Shown here piece by piece: positions 14,815 to 27,308 of a stretch of DNA of 64,000 nucleotides. The translations under genes were made by a program, and so were the position numbers. Source of the stretch: Promethearchaeia archaeon (GTDB lineage: Archaea; Asgardarchaeota; Lokiarchaeia; Sigyniarchaeales; SOKP01). The notes beneath the pieces were generated by a model that worked only from the letters and a program-made list of their open reading frames with translations, was not told where the DNA came from and made no database searches. The DNA lies in contig JAHQWK010000011.1 of NCBI GenBank assembly GCA_029856145.1, positions 117,506 through 181,505 on the forward strand, written 5' to 3'. Numbering within the stretch: position 1 is the first letter of the stretch; each line of letters starts with the position of its first letter.

Positions 14815-15798
14815 CTAATTGATATATATTTTTTTTTTTAATCTTTTTAAAACTGCTTTTTTATTTTCTAGACCAGCAGGACCTTTATTTTCAACTAAAA
14901 ATGAAGCTGCTGCTGATGCTAAATAAGCAGCCTTTTCGATTGATTCCCATGATTTATCGGAATGAATATATTCATATAAGAATATTGAGAAATAAACATC
15001 TCCTGCACCAGTTTCATCTACGACTCTTCTAGGTTCAAAAGCAGGAATATTAAGGATTTTTTCTCCTTTTTTAGTGAGCATGGACCCTTTTTCTCCCAAA
15101 GTCATAATGTAAATTCCATTATTATCATAGTTATTGCAGTGAATCATAACTTTTTCAAAATCATCACATTCCCCGGCAATTAGATTCATCTCCTCCTCTG
15201 AGCCTTTCAAAATCAATCTATCTCCAATTAAATCAATAATTTTCTTCATGTTAGAGATGATTTCATTCTCATAAATATATGTTACTTTACCATCCTCATC
15301 TATTTTTCTAATAAAACCTTGCAAATCTATGCCAATATAAGCATCAGAAAAATTTTTTAAAATTTGAGCTACATATTCATATGAAATTTCATTACACAAT
15401 GGAACGAGTACAAATATATCTGGAGGATTATTAAGATATTCTAATGGAATATCTTTAAAATCAAGATTAGGGCTCTTAGATTTTAGGGTCAAAGTCCTTG
15501 AATGATCAAAGTAATCCAATACAAATTTTGTATTTTTTACTTGAGAATATTTAATTCCTCTTAAATCAATTTTCTTATTCTTAATTTTATCTAACAAAGA
15601 GTTATTAAAATTTAATTTACCTATATGTGAGATTATGCCTATTTTAGCATCTTGGGTATAATTACTTAATGCTAAGGTGCAGTAGGATACACTTCCACCG
15701 AGGCTAGGTTTGTTAAGGCGTTTAAATCTTATTATGTTATCAATCGCAAAGTGACCCGTAAATATTATAGAGGGATGATTTTTATTTTGAGTATTCAT
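14815..15798 (-). CDS. PfkB-family carbohydrate kinase
   Basis: C-terminal DETGAGDVYFSIFLYEY and GGSVSYCTLALS signatures. Confidence 0.85.
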   Translation of the reverse strand: MNTQNKNHPSIIFTGHFAIDNIIRFKRLNKPSLGGSVSYCTLALSNYTQDAKIGIISHIGKLNFNNSLLDKIKNKKIDLRGIKYSQVKNTKFVLDYFDHSRTLTLKSKSPNLDFKDIPLEYLNNPPDIFVLVPLCNEISYEYVAQILKNFSDAYIGIDLQGFIRKIDEDGKVTYIYENEIISNMKKIIDLIGDRLILKGSEEEMNLIAGECDDFEKVMIHCNNYDNNGIYIMTLGEKGSMLTKKGEKILNIPAFEPRRVVDETGAGDVYFSIFLYEYIHSDKSWESIEKAAYLASAAASFLVENKGPAGLENKKAVLKRLKKKIYIN

Positions 15799-17000: not shown

Positions 17001-17885
17001 TTATTTTATTAATACTCCTGAAAAATATCCTACACAGTATCCACTGAAACTTCCAACTTTTTCAGAACTTGTATAATATTTTAATAATTTCCCTTTATTT
17101 GCATTTAAATTTTTACATATCATCATTAAAGAAGTTATTGTTTGAGCCCCACATACGGTTGTTTTTGAAGCTGCCTCAAGTGTTTTTTCTGGATTAAATG
17201 CGACAAAAGAATCAATTACTTGCTGATCTCTTTCCTTGAATTTTTCTAATTGTTTTGAATCATATACCTCTTTATGAGTCATATCAGAAGAGGCAACTAT
17301 TACCACATCCTTATTGTAGGATTCAATTGATTTTGCAATATCGTTTGATAATTTGCTCAATATATTAAAATCTTTAACAGATACTTTTATTGGTATAAAT
17401 TTAACATCTTTTTCTTGAGCACAATATTTTATAAATGGTAACTGTACTTCGATATTGTGTTCTCTTCCAAAAGGATGACCAATGAATGCTGACTCATCAT
17501 TTATAACTATATTACTATTATCTAATATCTTCTCAGATAATTCTTCATCAATATGTATATTTCCTAGAGGTGTTTCCCACGCTCCCTCATCCATTAAAGC
17601 AACTTTACCATAACCAATATGATCAGTGCCTAAAACTATAACAGTATCAGGTATTCTTTCTTTAAATAAATTTAAAAAAGTAAAAGCAGCACAACAACCA
17701 GAATAAACGTATCCCGCATGAGGAGATACTCCACCAATAATTGATCTTTGTTTTTGGTTTAATGTTTTGGGTTCTTCACCAGGTCCAAACTCATTATCAG
17801 TGAATGATTCTTTTAGAATGTTAAGTAAATCAGGTTTGAATCGGGGATAAAAGTGACCCGCCACCATAGCATGTCGAGTAACCAT
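17001..17885 (-). CDS. MEMO1 family protein (AmmeMemoRadiSam system protein B)
   Basis: AGHFYPRF, GGVSPHAGYVYSGCCAAF, LGTDHIGYG, SSDMTHK. Confidence 0.9.
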   Translation of the reverse strand: MVTRHAMVAGHFYPRFKPDLLNILKESFTDNEFGPGEEPKTLNQKQRSIIGGVSPHAGYVYSGCCAAFTFLNLFKERIPDTVIVLGTDHIGYGKVALMDEGAWETPLGNIHIDEELSEKILDNSNIVINDESAFIGHPFGREHNIEVQLPFIKYCAQEKDVKFIPIKVSVKDFNILSKLSNDIAKSIESYNKDVVIVASSDMTHKEVYDSKQLEKFKERDQQVIDSFVAFNPEKTLEAASKTTVCGAQTITSLMMICKNLNANKGKLLKYYTSSEKVGSFSGYCVGYFSGVLIK

Positions 17886-18005: not shown

Positions 18006-18602
18006 GTGATGAACCAAGTAAAGGATGAACAAATCTCTCTTGATGACATTGAAGTACCAGATAAAATTCCTACTAAATTTGTAAATTCAAGAGTGATTGT
18101 TTTCAACCCTTTGTATGCCTCTTATTTATACGTGAAGAAAGGGTTTTTTGGCTCTCCATTAGGGATCAATAAACCTAGATTAGAATATTTTTCCAAACCA
18201 AGCGAGTTATCGTTAATTGAATCATATTATCTATTAGAAAGAGATGAAATTACAATTTTCGATGTAAAAGAGAATAATTTTTTAGAGCCAAAGAAATTCA
18301 ATGAGATAGCTAAGAGGATTCATCATAAATTTGAGGAAAAATATATAATTTACAAAGATTTAAGACAAAAAGGATATATCCCGAGACCTGGGTTAAAGTT
18401 CGGAGCAGATTTCGTAATTTATAAAAAAGGACCAGGACTCGAACATTCTCTTTTTATGGTTCATGTTTTACCACATGATTCTGAAATTACTGCAATTGAT
18501 ATGGTTAGGGCGGGGAGGCTTGCAACCTCTGTAAGGAAAAAGTTTGTTATCGCAAATCCACTCACAAAATCATATTATTTCTTTGAATGGTTCAAGCCTT
18601 AA
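18006..18602 (+). CDS. endA: tRNA-splicing endonuclease
   Basis: YKDLRQKGYIPRPGLKFGADFVIYKKGPGLEHSLFMVHV...RAGRLATSVRKKFVIA matches the catalytic domain (Tyr/His/Lys). Confidence 0.88.
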   Translation: MMNQVKDEQISLDDIEVPDKIPTKFVNSRVIVFNPLYASYLYVKKGFFGSPLGINKPRLEYFSKPSELSLIESYYLLERDEITIFDVKENNFLEPKKFNEIAKRIHHKFEEKYIIYKDLRQKGYIPRPGLKFGADFVIYKKGPGLEHSLFMVHVLPHDSEITAIDMVRAGRLATSVRKKFVIANPLTKSYYFFEWFKP

Positions 18603-18694: not shown

Positions 18695-19348
18695 TTAGTG
18701 AGGTCTCCACTTTGAAGATATTATTATTATTATAAAAAACAACAATAGAAAAGGGGATAAAATAAAAAATGTTAATGAATAATAATAATAGAAGGTCCAT
18801 GTAATGAGTATTATTGAAGCAATTAACAATGCTACTAAATAATATAGTGAATTATTTCTTTTCATTTCATATATACTACCAAATATTATTATAAAAGATC
18901 CAAAAAACATACCTATCATTCCAACACCGGGAAGATAAGACCCCCAAAGGCTCGGTGGCTTCCAAAAAAAGTATATAGTATAATTTGTTATATAAACATA
19001 TTCTATTATAATACTCAAATTTAATGTTGAAATAATCATTAATACGCTGACAGTAAACGATTCTCCAGCAAGTTTTCCAGTATTAAGATTTCCCTTATCA
19101 ATACTTCTAAAAATATAAAAAGTAATAATTATACAAGCTAAAATTAAAATAGCTAAAATAAGATTTAAACCAAAAGGACTTAAAAAAAATCTCAAACTAA
19201 AATCCTTTATTACAAAGCCCCAATAGAAGAATACTTGCCCAAATTCATTAACAACATATGATGTAAAAATCAAAGGAAATAAGAATCCAATGAAAGTTAG
19301 TATAATTCCAACCTTAAGACTAAAAATATATATTTCGTTTTCTTCCAT
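18695..19348 (-). CDS. Multi-pass membrane protein, last gene of candidate peptide operon
   Basis: 217 aa, about 5-6 hydrophobic segments; starts 17 nt after the upstream small peptide gene. Confidence 0.65.
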   Translation of the reverse strand: MEENEIYIFSLKVGIILTFIGFLFPLIFTSYVVNEFGQVFFYWGFVIKDFSLRFFLSPFGLNLILAILILACIIITFYIFRSIDKGNLNTGKLAGESFTVSVLMIISTLNLSIIIEYVYITNYTIYFFWKPPSLWGSYLPGVGMIGMFFGSFIIIFGSIYEMKRNNSLYYLVALLIASIILITWTFYYYYSLTFFILSPFLLLFFIIIIISSKWRPH

Positions 19349-19365
19349 TTTTTATTTCCTATAAA

Positions 19366-19623
19366 TTAGGATTTTCTTTTTTTGATTTTAAAATCTTTCA
19401 TTCTTACAGTTGAATATCCCGTTCCAGCAGGATAGGTATTTCTACTGATTTCTGCTGTTAATATAAGTATAGATATTGCCCAAAAAGAGATCATTATTAT
19501 AATTATTAGCTTAAAAATTAGCGTATACCTACTATTATTAAAAAATAGTACCTTATTCATTTCTTTATTTGTTAATCCTAATTCTTTACCAATCTTATAA
19601 AACTCGATGATATCCTTAATCAT
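19366..19623 (-). CDS. Small single-TM peptide, candidate modified-peptide precursor (copy 2)
   Basis: 85 aa; FYKIGKELGLTNKEMN N-terminus and YPAGTGYSTVRMKDFKIKK tail shared with 22245..22490. Confidence 0.75.
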   Translation of the reverse strand: MIKDIIEFYKIGKELGLTNKEMNKVLFFNNSRYTLIFKLIIIIMISFWAISILILTAEISRNTYPAGTGYSTVRMKDFKIKKRKS

Positions 19624-19671
19624 TCTTTATTCCCATTTTTTATAAATTATCCATTTTTTAAATTACAGATT

Positions 19672-20796
19672 TTATATATTTAATATGCTAGAATAGATAT
19701 TTTTGTATTTTGATAAAACTGTATCCATTTTTCCTTTTACTTTAAAAATTTTCGAATTAAAACGTACATTTTCTATTGCTCGTAAACAATAGGGCGAATC
19801 TTCTGAGTTTAAGGCATATCTTGTTCCTAAACAGCCTCCTTTACATTCATTCACCATATCACAGTTTTTACAATATCCACGTAAATTTTCTTTTTCAAAA
19901 TTGCGATTATAATTAAAAGCATAAGGATTTGATATAATTTCCTTTAGACTATTGGTTCTTACATTTCCTTCAATAAATTTATCTGAAAGGGTTAAACATC
20001 CTTTAATATTTCCATTGCTTTGAATACCTAACACTGAATATCCTGCTTGACATCCAACCCATGGTGCTAATCCCAAATTTGGTATGAATCTTGAAAAATA
20101 ACCAATACAATGTGCTCCTATTACAGGGAGTCTTCGATAGGAGTATTTTTTAACATTAATTGCAATAAACATTGCTAATGCATAATATTCTTCTCTTGAA
20201 ATCATTAATTCTTTAGGAAAGCGCCCAATAGGGACTGCTAATTGAATTTGCCAAGAAATATTTTGATCCAAAATTAAATTTTTAATTAAATCTACTTCCT
20301 TTAAGTTTTTTTTATTAATGGCTGTTATTATTGAAACTGGCAGTTTTTCTTTTTTTAAAATCTTCATTGCATTTATAGTTTTATCGTAAGCTCCTTTAAT
20401 TCCTCTAAGATAATCATGAGTTTCTGGAATTCCACCGTCTAAGCTTAAAGATACACAATCTACATCTAGTTTTTTCAATTTTTGAATATGTTTAACAAGA
20501 TTTAATCCGTTAGTAACAATTGATAAGTCCATTTTATATTTCTTAACTTCTTTCGCAATTTCAAACCAGTCCTCTCTAATTAGAGGTTCTCCACCCATTA
20601 ATGCGACACCTTTATAGCCACATGAATGCAAATCTTTTACCAATTCTAACGCTTCCTCAGTATTTAACTCATCTGAACGCGCGCTACCCGCTCTGGACCC
20701 ACAATGAATGCATAAACTATTACACTTTAAAGTAATTTCCCAAACTGCACAAGAATTTTTTATTCTACGGGTTAAAAGTGATATTAAACTTGGCAT
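19672..20796 (-). CDS. Radical SAM/SPASM domain protein
   Basis: CNSLCIHC (CxxxCxxC), MGGEPL; C-terminal SPASM-type cysteines CLTLSD...CKNCDMVNECKGGC...YC. Confidence 0.9.
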   Translation of the reverse strand: MPSLISLLTRRIKNSCAVWEITLKCNSLCIHCGSRAGSARSDELNTEEALELVKDLHSCGYKGVALMGGEPLIREDWFEIAKEVKKYKMDLSIVTNGLNLVKHIQKLKKLDVDCVSLSLDGGIPETHDYLRGIKGAYDKTINAMKILKKEKLPVSIITAINKKNLKEVDLIKNLILDQNISWQIQLAVPIGRFPKELMISREEYYALAMFIAINVKKYSYRRLPVIGAHCIGYFSRFIPNLGLAPWVGCQAGYSVLGIQSNGNIKGCLTLSDKFIEGNVRTNSLKEIISNPYAFNYNRNFEKENLRGYCKNCDMVNECKGGCLGTRYALNSEDSPYCLRAIENVRFNSKIFKVKGKMDTVLSKYKNIYSSILNI

Positions 20797-20913
20797 TGCA
20801 ATTATCGGATTCTTTTTCTGAAATATAAATTGATTAAATTTCTTTAAAAACTTTTGTTATAAAAATTGAATATTTCATAATATAATCGCTATGGAGTATA
20901 ATTTAATTGCTTT

Positions 20914-22248
20914 TTAATTTACGGAATAGTACTTATCGAGAGTTATGATAGGATTAAAGTTCGCTAATGGTACTGTTGACTTCTTTACGCAACTTATTTC
21001 TGAAGCGATATCCTTTTTGATCATCTTTTTATTCTTTATATTACTAATTCTTAACAATCTTAATGTTCTCCTGTAAGTTTTTAGTGCATCTGATCTTAAA
21101 TTCAATTTAACAAACACTTTTGCTAAATTCCAGTAATAGATTAAATCATCCCTAAATATTTGAATTGAGTCTAACAATTTCTCTTTAGCAATTTCATAAT
21201 TTTGATTGTAAACTTCCTTTATTCCTTGATAGAAAAATACTTGAGATTTTCTTTGAATCATTGCAGAAGAGAAAAAGAACAACTTATTCGGTTTATTAGT
21301 TATTGAGAGTTCTTTTAGACGAGTCAATTGTTGCTGCTTTTCATTTTTGATAAACATTAATTTCTCTATTATTCTTTCACCAAATGCTTCTATTGATGAA
21401 AATGCAAACATTTGGGATCCTGGAATTGTTGGCAGTCTTTTAAGGGAATTAAATAGAATATTAGGAAGGTTGTATTTTATTATATATTCAATTATTTCAT
21501 AAATGTATTTTATCTCAAAAATTGAAAGATAATTGATATCCTCAATCCCTTTAAGAAAAATGTTAGCTACTTGAGGAAATCTTATTAGAATGGTCTTAAT
21601 AATTTCAAATATAATATTTTTATCTTTTCTTCTTTCAAATTCTTTTAACTTTAATATTATAAAAGTTACTAAATCCTCTTGTTCTTTTGCTAAAAAAGAG
21701 TCTTTAAAATCTACTAGATTCTCTAATAACATTTGTTTTCGAATATGCGTAATAACTTGAAAGAAATTCTCTTTTGAAGGCTTTTTGCATTCAACTCTTA
21801 AAGTGGGTATTGACTCTGTGTTATAAAATTTTCTTTCCTTTATATCAATAAATCCTATTTTTCTAAGCATTTCTGCTAACAATTCTGAGGGATAACATAA
21901 CTTATGTTGAAGTCCTTTATGAGGAATACCAAATATCCATCCTAAAATTTCCTTTTGTTGTTCATAGTTTCCATTTAAATAGGATTGAAAAGCCTTTTCA
22001 ATATCAGGTGTTTCTATTATTAGAACTCCATTAAACTGTAAGACTCTAAAAAATTCGCTTAATACATAGAGAGATTTGAAAAAACCAATATGTTCAATTA
22101 ATTGAATTGCTTTAACTTCTTCACAAGAGTTATCGGAAAATGAGAGATTTATAGCAGACATTTGTTGATCTGCTAAGATATCTTCATATAAATCAATATT
22201 GTAATAATCTGGCTCATATCTTCTTCCAGAGCCCACATTTAACTTCAT
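20914..22248 (-). CDS. SAM-dependent methyltransferase domain with helical C-terminal extension
   Basis: MKLNVGSGRRYEPDYYNIDLYEDI...LIEHIGFFKSLYVLSEFFRVLQFNGVLIIETPD; start overlaps the upstream peptide stop as ATGA. Confidence 0.75.
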   Translation of the reverse strand: MKLNVGSGRRYEPDYYNIDLYEDILADQQMSAINLSFSDNSCEEVKAIQLIEHIGFFKSLYVLSEFFRVLQFNGVLIIETPDIEKAFQSYLNGNYEQQKEILGWIFGIPHKGLQHKLCYPSELLAEMLRKIGFIDIKERKFYNTESIPTLRVECKKPSKENFFQVITHIRKQMLLENLVDFKDSFLAKEQEDLVTFIILKLKEFERRKDKNIIFEIIKTILIRFPQVANIFLKGIEDINYLSIFEIKYIYEIIEYIIKYNLPNILFNSLKRLPTIPGSQMFAFSSIEAFGERIIEKLMFIKNEKQQQLTRLKELSITNKPNKLFFFSSAMIQRKSQVFFYQGIKEVYNQNYEIAKEKLLDSIQIFRDDLIYYWNLAKVFVKLNLRSDALKTYRRTLRLLRISNIKNKKMIKKDIASEISCVKKSTVPLANFNPIITLDKYYSVN

Positions 22249-22490
22249 TTTTTATTTTTAAAATCATTTAATTTAACAGATGAATATAAGGTTCCGCTTG
22301 GATAAACAGATTTAGATCCAACAACTATAGCGACAACTATAACAACAGCTAATGAAGCTAAAAAAAATATCAATGAAAGTGTAAATAATATAGAACGATT
22401 GCCTGAAAATAAAAATGTTCGATTAATTTCACTTTTTTTTAATCCTAACTCTTTACCAATTCTATAAAATTGAGTTAATTCTTTGAACAT
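22245..22490 (-). CDS. Small single-TM peptide, candidate modified-peptide precursor (copy 1)
   Basis: Start reassigned from ORF track 22610 to internal Met at 22490 by similarity to 19366..19623; tail YPSGTLYSSVKLNDFKNKK. Confidence 0.75.
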   Translation of the reverse strand: MFKELTQFYRIGKELGLKKSEINRTFLFSGNRSILFTLSLIFFLASLAVVIVVAIVVGSKSVYPSGTLYSSVKLNDFKNKK

Positions 22491-22699: not shown

Positions 22700-24508
22700 T
22701 TAGATGGCAAGCAATCTTAATTTCTTCATGATTGTATCTTTAATTTTCTCGATCCGTTGAAATGCTTCATTAGGTACAGTCTGGCTTATTCGCAAAATTG
22801 AGTTTATAAGGTCTGGTTCTAAAAGATCCTCAATCAATATTCCTCGCTCTATAAGGTTTTTACCCTCGTTATAGATTAAAAGTATAACTTTGATTATCCC
22901 TAATAATTTTTTAATACTTGTATAATTATCAGTGTCATCGAAAGCGTTTTGAATTAAGAATCCGTCTCTAATCATTTTTGCAATGAATAGAACTAACTGT
23001 TGAGATTCAGGTAAATTTTTTTCTCCAACCAATTGTAGAATATGTTTCAATTCTTGTTCTTGGGATAATATCTCATTTACTTGGTTTCTACATTGAGACC
23101 AATCAATATCTATCTCTGGCCAATCTATATCTCTCTCATACCACCATTCAGAAATGAATTGGGAATAATTTGAATATGAATTCAACCAAGTAATGGCAGG
23201 ATAATGTTTTAGATAAGCAAGTTTAGGATCCAAAGCCCAAAAAACTTGAACTAAACGCTTAGTTGTTGCTGTTACTGGTTCGCTGAAATCCCCCGCAGGA
23301 GGAGAAATAGTGCCAATGATTGATATTGAACCAATTCTTTCATTTCCTAAATGATCTTTTCCTAAAGTTCTAACAACTCCTGCTCTTTCATAAAAACTAG
23401 ATAGTTTAGATGGTAGATAAGCAGGATATCCTTCTTCTGCGGGCATTTCTTCTAATAATCCTGAAATTTCTCTCAAAGATTCAGCCCATCTTGATATACT
23501 ATCAGCTAGAACTGCAACATCATATCCCATATCTCGATAATATTCTGCAATCGTTACTCCAGAAAATAAGCTAGCCTCCCGAGCAGATACAGGCATATTA
23601 GATGTATTAGCTATAAGTATAACTCTATCTAATAATGTTTCTCCGCTTTGGGGGTCTCTAATTTCTGAAAATTGTTTCAAAATATTAGCAATTTCATTTC
23701 CAGGTTCACCACACCCAATAAATACAATTAAATCAGCATTACACCATTTAGCGAGTAATTGCTGAATCACAGTTTTTCCTGTGCCAAAACCGCCCGGAAT
23801 CGCAACTGTTCCTCCTTTTGCTATCGGAAATAATAAGTCTATAACCCTTATTCCCGTGATCAATGGCTCACGAGGATCTTCTTTTCTCATATAAGGGCGC
23901 TTTTTTGTTATTGGCCATTTTTGCAGCATTGAGAAAGATTTTTCTATACTATTTTTTTTTATTAGAAAAATCTCATCTGTGATTGTATAATCTCCTTCTT
24001 GAGCAATAAAGGATATTTCTCCATTGATAAATGGAGGGACCATTATTTTATGTTCAAAAAATGTAGTTTCTTGTATAGTACCAATAATATCTCCTGCATT
24101 GACGTTATCATTATTTTTCCTTATTGGTACAAAATGCCATTTTTTACTTCTAGATAAAGAAGGATATTTTACTCCTCTCCCTAATCTTCCATTATTAAAA
24201 TCTTCAAATACTTTTCCTAATGGTCTCTGTATCCCATCGAAAACGTTTGATAAAAGCCCTGGAGCTAATTCCATTGAAAGAGGTTCATTCAAACTAACAA
24301 CTTCTTCATTTAACTGTAGGTTTATGGTATTTTCAAAACATTGACTAATTATATGATCTGAATAGATCTGAATTACTTCTCCCAGGATATTATATTTAGA
24401 GATATTAATTAGGTCGAAAAGATGGACATGATTTTCCAGACCTTTAATTTTGATAAGCGATCCATTAATTGCAGAAATATAGCCAATTTTTATTTCTGTT
24501 TCATTCAT
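22700..24508 (-). CDS. A/V-type ATP synthase subunit A, divergent second paralogue
   Basis: [12 protein letters not shown]-loop; GCGEPGNE in place of [24 protein letters not shown]. Confidence 0.9.
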
Positions 24509-24532
24509 CTCTTTTTTTCAAGCATCCTATTT

Positions 24533-24976
24533 TTATTGGTATATTATATTTTCATTACAAAATGGACATTTTTTAACAAAATTCGGCACAATATTCCCAC
24601 AATTTTTACATTTATTTATTAAAGGTTTACGGTATTCAAACTCTAGGTTGATAGGTTTAGAAATTTTAAGGTTAGGTTGTTTTAATTCCTTCTCTTCTAG
24701 AATTCGCTTTCTTTTTGTCTGTTCACTTAGTTTAGCTCTACTTTTTTTATCTGAAAACATCCTAGAATAAAGAGTTCGTTTGTTTCGTCTGAGAAATGGT
24801 CCGATAGTAGCTAAAATAATAAAGATGAGTAAAATTGAGATAATTAAAGGGTTAAAACCAAAATTGATTAGTAGATAAAATAGGTAAAGAAAAATAATTA
24901 AATAAAGCATTATCCAAATTAATTTCAAAATAACTTGTTTGCGTGATGGTTTATTTTTTTTGTCTTCTAGCGTCAT
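24533..24976 (-). CDS. Membrane-anchored zinc-ribbon protein
   Basis: Two hydrophobic segments, C-terminal CKNCGNIVPNFVKKCPFC. Confidence 0.65.
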   Translation of the reverse strand: MTLEDKKNKPSRKQVILKLIWIMLYLIIFLYLFYLLINFGFNPLIISILLIFIILATIGPFLRRNKRTLYSRMFSDKKSRAKLSEQTKRKRILEEKELKQPNLKISKPINLEFEYRKPLINKCKNCGNIVPNFVKKCPFCNENIIYQ

Positions 24977-25016
24977 AAATTGTAGATTTTAACATTTTTG
25001 CTTATTAAATATCATT

Positions 25017-27308
25017 TTATTTAAATTCTTTTGAGATATAACTCTTCGCTTTATCAATCTCATCCTTTACCGATTTAATTTCAATTTCTTTATCTATCTC
25101 TTCGGAAATTATATCTTTCTCAAGTTCTCTACTGAATATCATTACTGAATAATCAGCATCAAGATAGAAAGGGAAATACTCAATGCCAGAACCTTGAAAG
25201 AATTTAAAAAAGAACTCATAAAAATGTAACCTCATCGTGTTGATAAATACAAGTAATCCTTCTATGAGAATAACGATAATATTACCAAAGATTAAACCAA
25301 CTATGTTAAGTATTTCAAAACCTATACCCTCTCCCTGAATCAGATTTCCCATTTCATTTATAGCATATAATAAAGCGACATGAGCAAGTGCTAGTGCTAG
25401 TAACCTAATATATGAAAGAACATTACTCATAACTGATAATAATGTATCAAATGTTTCAATTGATCCTTCACCTAATAATCCACCAAAAGATTCTTCCCGT
25501 AAATAGGATAATTTAAATACCTTCCCTAAGGGTTTTGAGAGTATCAGTAAAAGTCCTGGAATTAACACAAATAGTATAGGGTATGGAAAAGCTAACCATA
25601 CATATATATCAAATCCATAAGTAAAAATTAGAACTGTTCCTCCGATCAAAAAGAAAATTTTCATTAATGAGTCGGTAAATGCTAAATATTTCCTATGTTG
25701 CTTCCAATAATTTAGAAATTGAATGATCCACCCCAAAATTATGTGAAAAATCCCAATTAATATGGAAAAATAAAATACAGATAAAATATTATTTAATGGA
25801 TTATATAAAATGATATTTGTAAAAGGAATTTTAATTGGCTCAAGATTTAAAAGAACGATGCCAAATATTTCTATTTCTTGTTTTCCAAAAAATTCACCAT
25901 ATAAAAAACCAATAAAAAAAGCAGCCCATCCACAGAAAAAGATAATCCAAGAGAAGTTAGACATTTGTTTCTTTCGCTTTCTGAATACTAATGCTCCTAT
26001 TAATCCACATATTATTAAAGTTAAGCCATGCCCAATATCTCCAAACATAATTCCAAATAATATAGGAAAAGTAAAAGCAATAATTGGCGTAGGATCTATT
26101 TCAGAATAAGTAGGAGTACCATACATTTTTGTGATTGCTTCGAAGGGTCTTACTAAAAAAAAGTTTTTCATAATTCTTGGAGTTTGATCCCTTAAATCTT
26201 CAACGCTATCAGATTCCTCACTTAATGACTTTATAGTTTCTGTTTTTACTTTTAATCTACTTTTTTTTTTTCTGATTGATTTTGAGGGATAAATTTCATA
26301 AATAGGACGCTTTTTAGATACATCAATCGAGTCAACTATTACGTTATCCTTAAATTTATTGAATAGGGTTTCTTGAATTTTATTCTTTTTTGATAAAGGA
26401 ACAAAAAATTTGAGAATTGCCCTATTTGTTGAAGTTTTTTCAAATTGCTGATCTGCCCAATTATATTCTTCGATATTTTGAACGATTTCATTAATACCTG
26501 CAAATTTTAATAAATTATCCTTAGCGATTCTACTTTGCTCTTTGTTATACCTTAATAATAAGTCTTTGATAAAATTGATTTCCATATCAATCCTATTATA
26601 ATTAATACCTGTATCAGTCATATATTTTTTTAAAATCGGGACTTGTTCTGAATGGATTAATCGAATTCTTCCATTAAATTCATCTTCTTTATCCTTAGGA
26701 TATATTATATAAAAACCTATCCGATCATCTGGGATTTCAAATGTCTCATAGAAGTTTGGGAATTCAGAAAAAGCAAAAAGATTGTTTAAATTATCTAAAT
26801 TTTTATAAAATGTTGTAAAAACTTTAAATTTAAAATAATTTAAATTCGTAACGTTATTTTTTGTTATATTTATTTTTTCAAGGTGTTTATAACAAGCTTT
26901 TATAGACTGTAAATTCTCTAGCTCAATATTTGCTTTAGCAATATAACTTTGTAATTCTGTTACCCGATTTATGAAAAAATCTATTTCTTCAAGAATATGA
27001 TTAATTAATTCAGTAAAGTCTTGTGCTTTAAATTCAATTCTCTCAGATTTCTTAATTCGTAAATTTTCAATATCAGCTTCATTAATATCAAGTTTTTTAA
27101 ATAATGTATTCAAATTCTTTCTTAAAAGTTTAATCTTCTCAACAACAGGCCTTTTATCTTCAATTTCTCCTTTGATTTTGGTTTTCTCTTTTTGTTTAAT
27201 ATGTACAGTATTTAAATTAGATATTTCTATTAAAAGTTGATCTTTATAATTATTGTTAATGTCCGCTTTCATTAAACAAAATTCATCTTTTTTTCCCATA
27301 CCATCCAC
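25017..27308 (-). CDS. atpI: A/V-type ATP synthase subunit I (a-type)
   Basis: Cytoplasmic N-half, C-terminal multi-TM region with FGIMFGDIGHGL, SYIRLLALALAHVALLYAIN, GLLVFINTMRLHFYEFFFKFFQGSG. Confidence 0.93.
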   Translation of the reverse strand: MDGMGKKDEFCLMKADINNNYKDQLLIEISNLNTVHIKQKEKTKIKGEIEDKRPVVEKIKLLRKNLNTLFKKLDINEADIENLRIKKSERIEFKAQDFTELINHILEEIDFFINRVTELQSYIAKANIELENLQSIKACYKHLEKINITKNNVTNLNYFKFKVFTTFYKNLDNLNNLFAFSEFPNFYETFEIPDDRIGFYIIYPKDKEDEFNGRIRLIHSEQVPILKKYMTDTGINYNRIDMEINFIKDLLLRYNKEQSRIAKDNLLKFAGINEIVQNIEEYNWADQQFEKTSTNRAILKFFVPLSKKNKIQETLFNKFKDNVIVDSIDVSKKRPIYEIYPSKSIRKKKSRLKVKTETIKSLSEESDSVEDLRDQTPRIMKNFFLVRPFEAITKMYGTPTYSEIDPTPIIAFTFPILFGIMFGDIGHGLTLIICGLIGALVFRKRKKQMSNFSWIIFFCGWAAFFIGFLYGEFFGKQEIEIFGIVLLNLEPIKIPFTNIILYNPLNNILSVFYFSILIGIFHIILGWIIQFLNYWKQHRKYLAFTDSLMKIFFLIGGTVLIFTYGFDIYVWLAFPYPILFVLIPGLLLILSKPLGKVFKLSYLREESFGGLLGEGSIETFDTLLSVMSNVLSYIRLLALALAHVALLYAINEMGNLIQGEGIGFEILNIVGLIFGNIIVILIEGLLVFINTMRLHFYEFFFKFFQGSGIEYFPFYLDADYSVMIFSRELEKDIISEEIDKEIEIKSVKDEIDKAKSYISKEFK

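Follow-up and report, generated by a model that had tools for sequence, protein, structure and literature searches.

What do a radical S-adenosylmethionine (SAM) enzyme and a methyltransferase do when their genes stand between those of two small, paralogous membrane peptides? The question is raised by positions 18,695 to 22,490 of a 64,000-nucleotide stretch of DNA, here called the window, from a Promethearchaeia archaeon of the Asgard archaea (assembly GCA_029856145.1, contig JAHQWK010000011.1, positions 117,506 to 181,505; the genome comprises 3.55 Mb in 32 contigs). An earlier note, made from the letters of the window, had proposed a local peptide-modification operon of an unrecognised family, with the conserved tail of the peptides as the target. 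Comparison with other genomes leads us to regard the locus as one copy of a cassette found across the Asgard phylum. We rather favour the explanation that it is a modification cassette resembling those of ribosomally synthesized and post-translationally modified peptides (RiPPs), in which the small membrane proteins would be the substrates and a tyrosine of the tail would undergo tyramine splicing. The five co-directional genes and the ATGA overlap described in the earlier note were confirmed, and each reading frame is open at the coordinates below; the longest open reading frame of peptide 1 begins further upstream, at GTG.

22245..22490, minus strand: peptide 1, 81 aa from ATG, with the N-terminal recognition motif FYRIGKELGLKKSEI, one transmembrane (TM) segment and the tail YPSGTLYSSVKLNDFKNKK
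22248..22304, minus strand: peptide 1 tail, with two invariant tyrosines in an alignment of 34 family members; the predicted site is the second (L-Y-S)
20914..22248, minus strand: methyltransferase fused to helical (TPR-like) repeats, 444 aa, overlapping the peptide 1 stop (ATGA)
19672..20796, minus strand: radical SAM/SPASM enzyme, 374 aa, of the splicease/GDL-maturase family, Asgard clade
20701..20724, minus strand: CxxxCxxC motif of that enzyme (CNSLCIHC; C25, C29, C32), site for the SAM-binding [4Fe-4S] cluster, invariant in the family alignments
19786..20052, minus strand: its SPASM cysteines (C249, C267, C309, C312, C318, C322, C337), invariant in the family alignments
19366..19623, minus strand: peptide 2, 85 aa, paralogue of peptide 1, with FYKIGKELGLTNKEM, one TM segment and the tail YPAGTGYSTVRMKDFKIKKRKS
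19369..19434, minus strand: peptide 2 tail, predicted site G-Y-S
18695..19348, minus strand: multi-TM protein, 217 aa, an optional partner located immediately after one peptide copy at 7 loci

Homologues of peptide 2 were found in 15 of the 58 genomes covered by a search of relatives, and at all 16 loci that we read (16/16) one to three peptide copies adjoin the radical SAM and methyltransferase genes, both of which are at least partly present; where an enzyme gene is partial, it has been cut by the end of a contig. Across 228 Asgard genomes, a profile of the peptides matches 44 and a profile of the radical SAM enzyme matches 59. Both occur in 41 genomes, the peptide only in 3, the enzyme only in 18 and neither in 166 (Fisher p = 2e-27, a calculation that treats related genomes as though they were independent). 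Of the 21 one-sided genomes, four carry a cassette cut by a contig end (peptide-only G153 and G159; enzyme-only G154 and G161), the third peptide-only genome, G064, has a weak match, and most of the other enzyme-only genomes hold the enzyme, the methyltransferase and small proteins that have diverged too far for the first profile to match them. The peptides are not found mostly away from radical SAM genes, which the earlier note had named as a ground for abandoning its proposal, but track the enzyme across the phylum (41 of 44 genomes). The cassette of that note is upheld, whereas its local character is not. As a dedicated peptide-modifying cassette whose conserved tail is the putative target, the proposal is partly supported: the tracking of the enzyme by the peptides speaks for a dedicated cassette, and the tail is its predicted site of modification.

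Because the genomic surroundings of the cassette differ, this linkage does not reflect shared synteny. V-ATPase and/or Memo genes do flank the cassette in three genomes of the window's genus (the window itself, G018 and G010), as would be expected if the genes were chance neighbours without a common function, for example part of adjoining V-ATPase or AmmeMemoRadiSam regions. We judge this highly improbable, and it is refuted by the comparative data, since many unrelated surroundings contain the cassette and its members co-occur as described above. In the f8 group, genes for a nitronate monooxygenase, an alcohol dehydrogenase and an aldehyde oxidoreductase lie around the cassette. Membership of the window enzyme in AmmeMemoRadiSam was likewise rejected: the adjoining Memo gene is real, but the AmmeMemoRadiSam model is not among the best matches of the enzyme.

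The core cassette consists of the radical SAM/SPASM enzyme, the methyltransferase with its helical repeats and one to seven small proteins. In the largest array (L130:3659-7544), genes for seven small membrane proteins, all paralogues, stand one after another before the radical SAM and methyltransferase genes; the C-terminal tails of these proteins are of the form xYG[VI][YF]. No protease or transporter was a conserved member of the cassette in the Asgard loci read; only in one f15 genome is it followed downstream by genes for an ABC-2 transporter ATPase and permease (L122:11943-13738). Viral contigs scanned with the peptide profile gave no match. The multi-TM protein, which the earlier note had counted as the fifth member of the operon, does not belong to the core, and it matched no Pfam or NCBIfam family.

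If the cassette modifies peptides, the enzyme family should indicate the kind of chemistry. The radical SAM/SPASM identity of the enzyme is borne out by the CxxxCxxC motif and all seven SPASM cysteines, which are invariant in 15 close and 37 wider relatives, and by the Pfam models Radical_SAM and SPASM, both above cut-off (SPASM 34 bits vs 21.5). Its predicted structure is a complete radical SAM/SPASM fold without an added RiPP recognition element (RRE) domain. Among NCBIfam models, it scores highest against TIGR04103 (226 bits; cut-off 725) and TIGR03913 (192 bits; cut-off 592), and the annotated plasmid relatives that were best by tblastn include both kinds. A genome-wide scan yielded 80 named relatives, and the tree groups all of those sampled with the Asgard enzymes. 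In the tree, the Asgard enzymes and one Thermoplasmatota enzyme form a clade (100/98) that is sister to a bacterial and methanogen clade containing the TIGR04103 spliceases (PlpX type) and the TIGR03913 maturases of GDL peptides; the Asgard branch is not nested inside TIGR04103. The whole family is separated with full support (100/100) from AhbD-like, NirJ-like, MftC and TIGR04053 outgroups, and an earlier tree agrees. Residues such as W77, W182-Q183-x-Q185, G232 and G257 are invariant or almost so among family members, a conservation that the outgroups lack. The two window peptides matched no Pfam or NCBIfam family, but the enzyme is not of an unrecognised kind: it belongs with the spliceases and GDL-peptide maturases. 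Because of this shared family, the tail tyrosine (xY[GSA]) is the predicted site.

The methyltransferase was also correctly recognised in the earlier note. The window protein falls below the Pfam cut-offs, and relatives pass them (Methyltransf_11 and TPR in a relative). An AlphaFold2 model (predicted local distance difference test, pLDDT, 91.1; predicted TM-score, pTM, 0.88) has a class I fold to about residue 155 and all-helical repeats to residue 423, and the Foldseek matches listed for it are class I SAM methyltransferases. The gene adjoins that of the radical SAM enzyme in every Asgard group with enough contig, and not at the Thermoplasmatota locus.

What, then, is conserved in the presumed substrates? 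Peptides 1 and 2 are paralogues, as the earlier note had claimed: they share 40% identity and 68% positives over 82 aa (E = 5e-20), and their tails share 12 of 19 residues, a score equalled in none of 100,000 shuffles. The layout of the window's family is an N-terminal helix (FYxIGKELGLxxxE), one TM segment and a tail (YPxGTxYS[ST][VI]xxxDF). In the alignment of 34 members, G12, Y64, Y70 and F78 (peptide 2 numbering) are invariant and L15, G16, L17, E21, G67, S71 and D77 nearly so. The f8 and f11 proteins, mostly 107-150 aa long, contain a single TM segment, and YVPGTRYGSISPKDF exemplifies their tails. Several TM segments are found in the 120-185-aa proteins of a third group (f15, f18, f2 and f3), which have an N-terminal motif of the same pattern, e.g., KLNEVGALTEVDSKDL; xY[GSN] occurs near the C-terminus in 23 of the 25 scanned proteins of this group, mostly as xYG[VT][YF], and one exception is cut by a contig end. 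The 79-aa Thermoplasmatota relative, which adjoins the same enzyme, runs from LHDLGHTLGLNDTDIA through a TM segment to LYYTGVSIKDF. In Helarchaeota, three soluble peptides of 46-65 aa lie beside the radical SAM gene (L233:5469-5982, the same as L125:9021-9534), with G-Y-P near the N-terminus; they end in PPKYGVYKRR, PPRYGVYKLD and PPSYGVYSRK.

While the body of the protein changes, the N-terminal motif (except in Helarchaeota) and a tail tyrosine followed by a small residue stay constant, and in nearly all substrates this tyrosine lies in a C-terminal tail and is followed by S, G, A or N. After the second tail tyrosine, the window's family has S in 60 cases, G in 2 and A in 1; f8/f11 have G in 18, A in 8 and S in 1, where one f8 A is a spurious N-terminal match and the lone S comes from a fragmentary window-family peptide. 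This constancy looks like the pattern of a leader and a modified core. As in a RiPP system, a gene-encoded candidate substrate with conserved recognition and target regions is linked to its putative modifying enzyme; for leader removal and product export, the cassette contains no conserved protease or transporter.

The same copy numbers and tails bear on the possibility that the small membrane proteins have an anchoring or regulatory role, bringing both enzymes to the membrane, and that the enzymes act on a lipid, glycan or cofactor. Their membrane location, the missing product-release gene and the presence of a methyltransferase would fit such a role, and the families that come next outside this one include the AhbD/NirJ cofactor enzymes. 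We nevertheless consider it improbable, because a cassette may hold from one to seven copies of the small protein, because the tail is conserved though the body shifts from one TM segment to several or to a soluble peptide, and because the bacterial relatives of the enzyme act on peptides.

Among non-Asgard loci, a small same-strand open reading frame with xYG[VILTAP] lies within 700 nt of the enzyme gene in 45 of 80 relatives, compared with 6 of 80 on the opposite strand (p = 2e-11). The xYG motif occurs in separate deep branches: QPMYGVV in cyanobacteria, LLYGVRFP in Methanoperedens, LLYGTPP in Chlorobium and LLYGVNIW in Pseudomonadota, besides the motifs of Methanosarcina, the GDL peptides and the Asgard groups. 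Given this distribution, it is most economical to assume that the family was tyrosine-directed from the start, and TIGR04103, TIGR03913 and the enzymes of the Asgard clade can be placed together in one family that is probably directed at tyrosine. The cyanobacterial precursors beside family enzymes carry MYG or LYG, and a Nostoc TIGR04103 member, which scores 853 against that model, has a precursor ending in GSIALYGLPPELF upstream and a 71-aa gene downstream, the PlpX/PlpY layout. The GDL peptides have xYG or xYA close to the N-terminus (PYGVAI, LYGVGI and LYAAGI), which suggests that the TIGR03913 maturases are also tyrosine-directed, and possibly spliceases. Residues other than Gly after the tyrosine occur in bacteria as well, as in a Clostridium with AYAV and CYSV, and some branches, chiefly of Myxococcota and other deltaproteobacteria, have no xYG or only xYM/xYA repeats. 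Beside a family enzyme of Methanosarcina lies the substrate candidate LYGIVRPLYGVPLK, which may represent a second archaeal candidate substrate for splicing.

A dedicated modification of the tail does not in itself specify splicing. SPASM enzymes such as SuiB, MftC and EpeE perform cross-linking, epimerisation or similar chemistry, and the solved folds nearest to the window enzyme are PqqE, SkfB and SuiB. Two invariant tyrosines, six residues apart, are found in the f1 and f8/f11 tails, and YP recurs in the third group and in the Helarchaeota peptides; a C-C or C-O cross-link (e.g., Y64-Y70), an epimerisation or the transfer of a hydroxyl or methyl group could be built on such residues. We regard these other tyrosine chemistries as unlikely, although they deserve more weight than an anchoring role. 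The bacterial and methanogen substrates of the family share only xYG, without the YP...Y pair, and, to our knowledge, tyramine excision is the sole chemistry known in the radical SAM family concerned. Thioether chemistry of the sactipeptide or ranthipeptide kind was excluded, since the peptides contain no conserved Cys.

Tyramine splicing of the tail is also the reading that can be compared directly with a described system. PlpX, with its partner in PlpXY, excises tyramine at Xaa-Tyr-Gly (PMC10533398, PMC11002830), and splicing by tyramine excision occurs broadly across bacteria, yielding a ketoamide with protease-inhibitory and labelling uses (PMC10373908). Like PlpXY (TIGR04103; PlpX in IPR026482), the Asgard cassette has a radical SAM/SPASM enzyme that falls in the same clade (100/100) and is 29-37% identical to the Nostoc member, a tyrosine and a small residue near the substrate C-terminus, and several substrates per cluster. 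Unlike PlpXY, its enzyme lies far below the TIGR04103 cut-off, its substrates are membrane proteins without Nif11 or nitrile-hydratase-like leaders (no Pfam/NCBIfam match for the window peptides, no Pfam match for relatives), and a methyltransferase with helical repeats takes the place of PlpY; in the Asgard loci read, no small conserved soluble gene for a PlpY/RRE partner lies beside the enzymes except the substrates. Our guess is that the repeat domain of the methyltransferase stands in for the RRE partner PlpY. At the position of the XYG splice site, the f8/f11 substrates carry YG (or YA), those of the third group mostly YG and those of the window's family YS. We class the Asgard cassette as a putative variant of the splicease system, sharing the enzyme family but departing from PlpXY in model cut-off, PlpY partner and leader type.

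The GDL-motif/DUF1843 systems (TIGR03913) belong to the same enzyme clade, and they too have small paralogous peptides with xY[GA], in arrays of two or three, and, in Bacteroidota, an adjoining class I methyltransferase. They differ in that the small peptide lacks a TM segment and carries its xYG close to the N-terminus. Their methyltransferase was considered as a homologue of the Asgard one and rejected, since no homology was detectable. MftC (mycofactocin), AhbD and NirJ are similar in radical SAM/SPASM architecture, and they differ in their substrates and fall outside the clade with full support.

According to the positive-inside rule, the positively charged flank of a TM segment stays inside. 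In 56 of 61 informative peptides of the window's family (p = 6e-12) and in 19 of 23 f8/f11 proteins (p = 0.003), the 15 residues that precede the segment carry more positive charge than those that follow. The whole tails of the window's family are themselves Lys-rich at the very ends. The tail is thus predicted to face outward after membrane insertion, and a cytosolic radical SAM enzyme would have to modify it before insertion. Under tyramine splicing, the enzyme pair would recognise the N-terminal helix of the small protein, and the radical SAM enzyme would remove the tyramine portion of the tail tyrosine and rejoin the backbone; the methyltransferase would act before or after splicing and add a second modification. 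The N-terminus would then stay inside while the protein inserts with its modified tail outside. Splicing would leave a reactive ketoamide exposed at the cell surface, where it might serve as an anchored protease inhibitor or a covalent capture group, a reasonable use because the spliced residues of bacterial products inhibit proteases (PMC10373908).

Several observations weigh against tyramine splicing in the window. The tails there have Ser and not Gly after the tyrosine; the enzyme reaches 226 bits where TIGR04103 demands 725; the Asgard loci read contain no PlpY-like partner, protease or dedicated exporter in the cassette; and the two invariant tail tyrosines would also allow another tyrosine-based chemistry, such as a cross-link. 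Moreover, 35 of the 80 non-Asgard relatives have no xYG open reading frame close by, and for the GDL maturases of the same clade no assigned chemistry was found in the accessible literature. The full proposal, that Asgard archaea perform phylum-wide backbone splicing of membrane-anchored, outward-facing proteins, in the window's sub-branch at Tyr-Ser instead of Tyr-Gly and coupled to a repeat-bearing methyltransferase, is put forward tentatively, as something we find plausible but would not yet call probable.

In the open-access papers searched, we found no archaeal or membrane-anchored splicease system; the main splicease survey (Scott et al. 2022, Chem) lay outside that search. On Asgard radical SAM peptides, the same literature yielded only surveys at the level of classes, which name ranthipeptides and sactipeptides; one survey of archaeal RiPPs names Asgard radical SAM classes only as these two (PMC12144867). 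If the proposal is true, backbone splicing extends to archaeal surface proteins, with substrates fixed in the membrane rather than released, and Asgard archaea may carry chemically rebuilt protein tails on the cell surface. Asgard archaea are the closest known prokaryotic relatives of eukaryotes, the biology of their cell surface holds a central place in models of how eukaryotes arose, and the cassette offers a mass-spectrometry test there: the tryptic tail peptides that hold the second tail tyrosine of the window peptides are NTYPAGTGYSTVR and SVYPSGTLYSSVK.

Some minor observations were made at individual loci. In Methanosarcina, a peptide of 44-52 aa with VPLYGIVRPLYGVPLK (or LYGV) lies beside the relative of the enzyme (L211:5555-5713 and L222:5169-5303). 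The peptides of the GDL/DUF1843 type in TIGR03913 systems (L155, L156, L194, L195, L198, L199, L201, L205 and L241) have xYG or xYA on the N-terminal side. The Clostridium cluster (L223:5671-10429) has several small peptides (AYAV, AYAI and CYSV) around the family enzyme, followed by a 732-aa gene whose N-terminus resembles that of a peptidase-containing ABC exporter. The neighbours of the cassette in the window are ordinary: a PfkB-type kinase (14815-15798), a Memo-family protein (17001-17885), a tRNA splicing endonuclease (18006-18602, plus strand) and V-type ATPase subunits (22700-27308).

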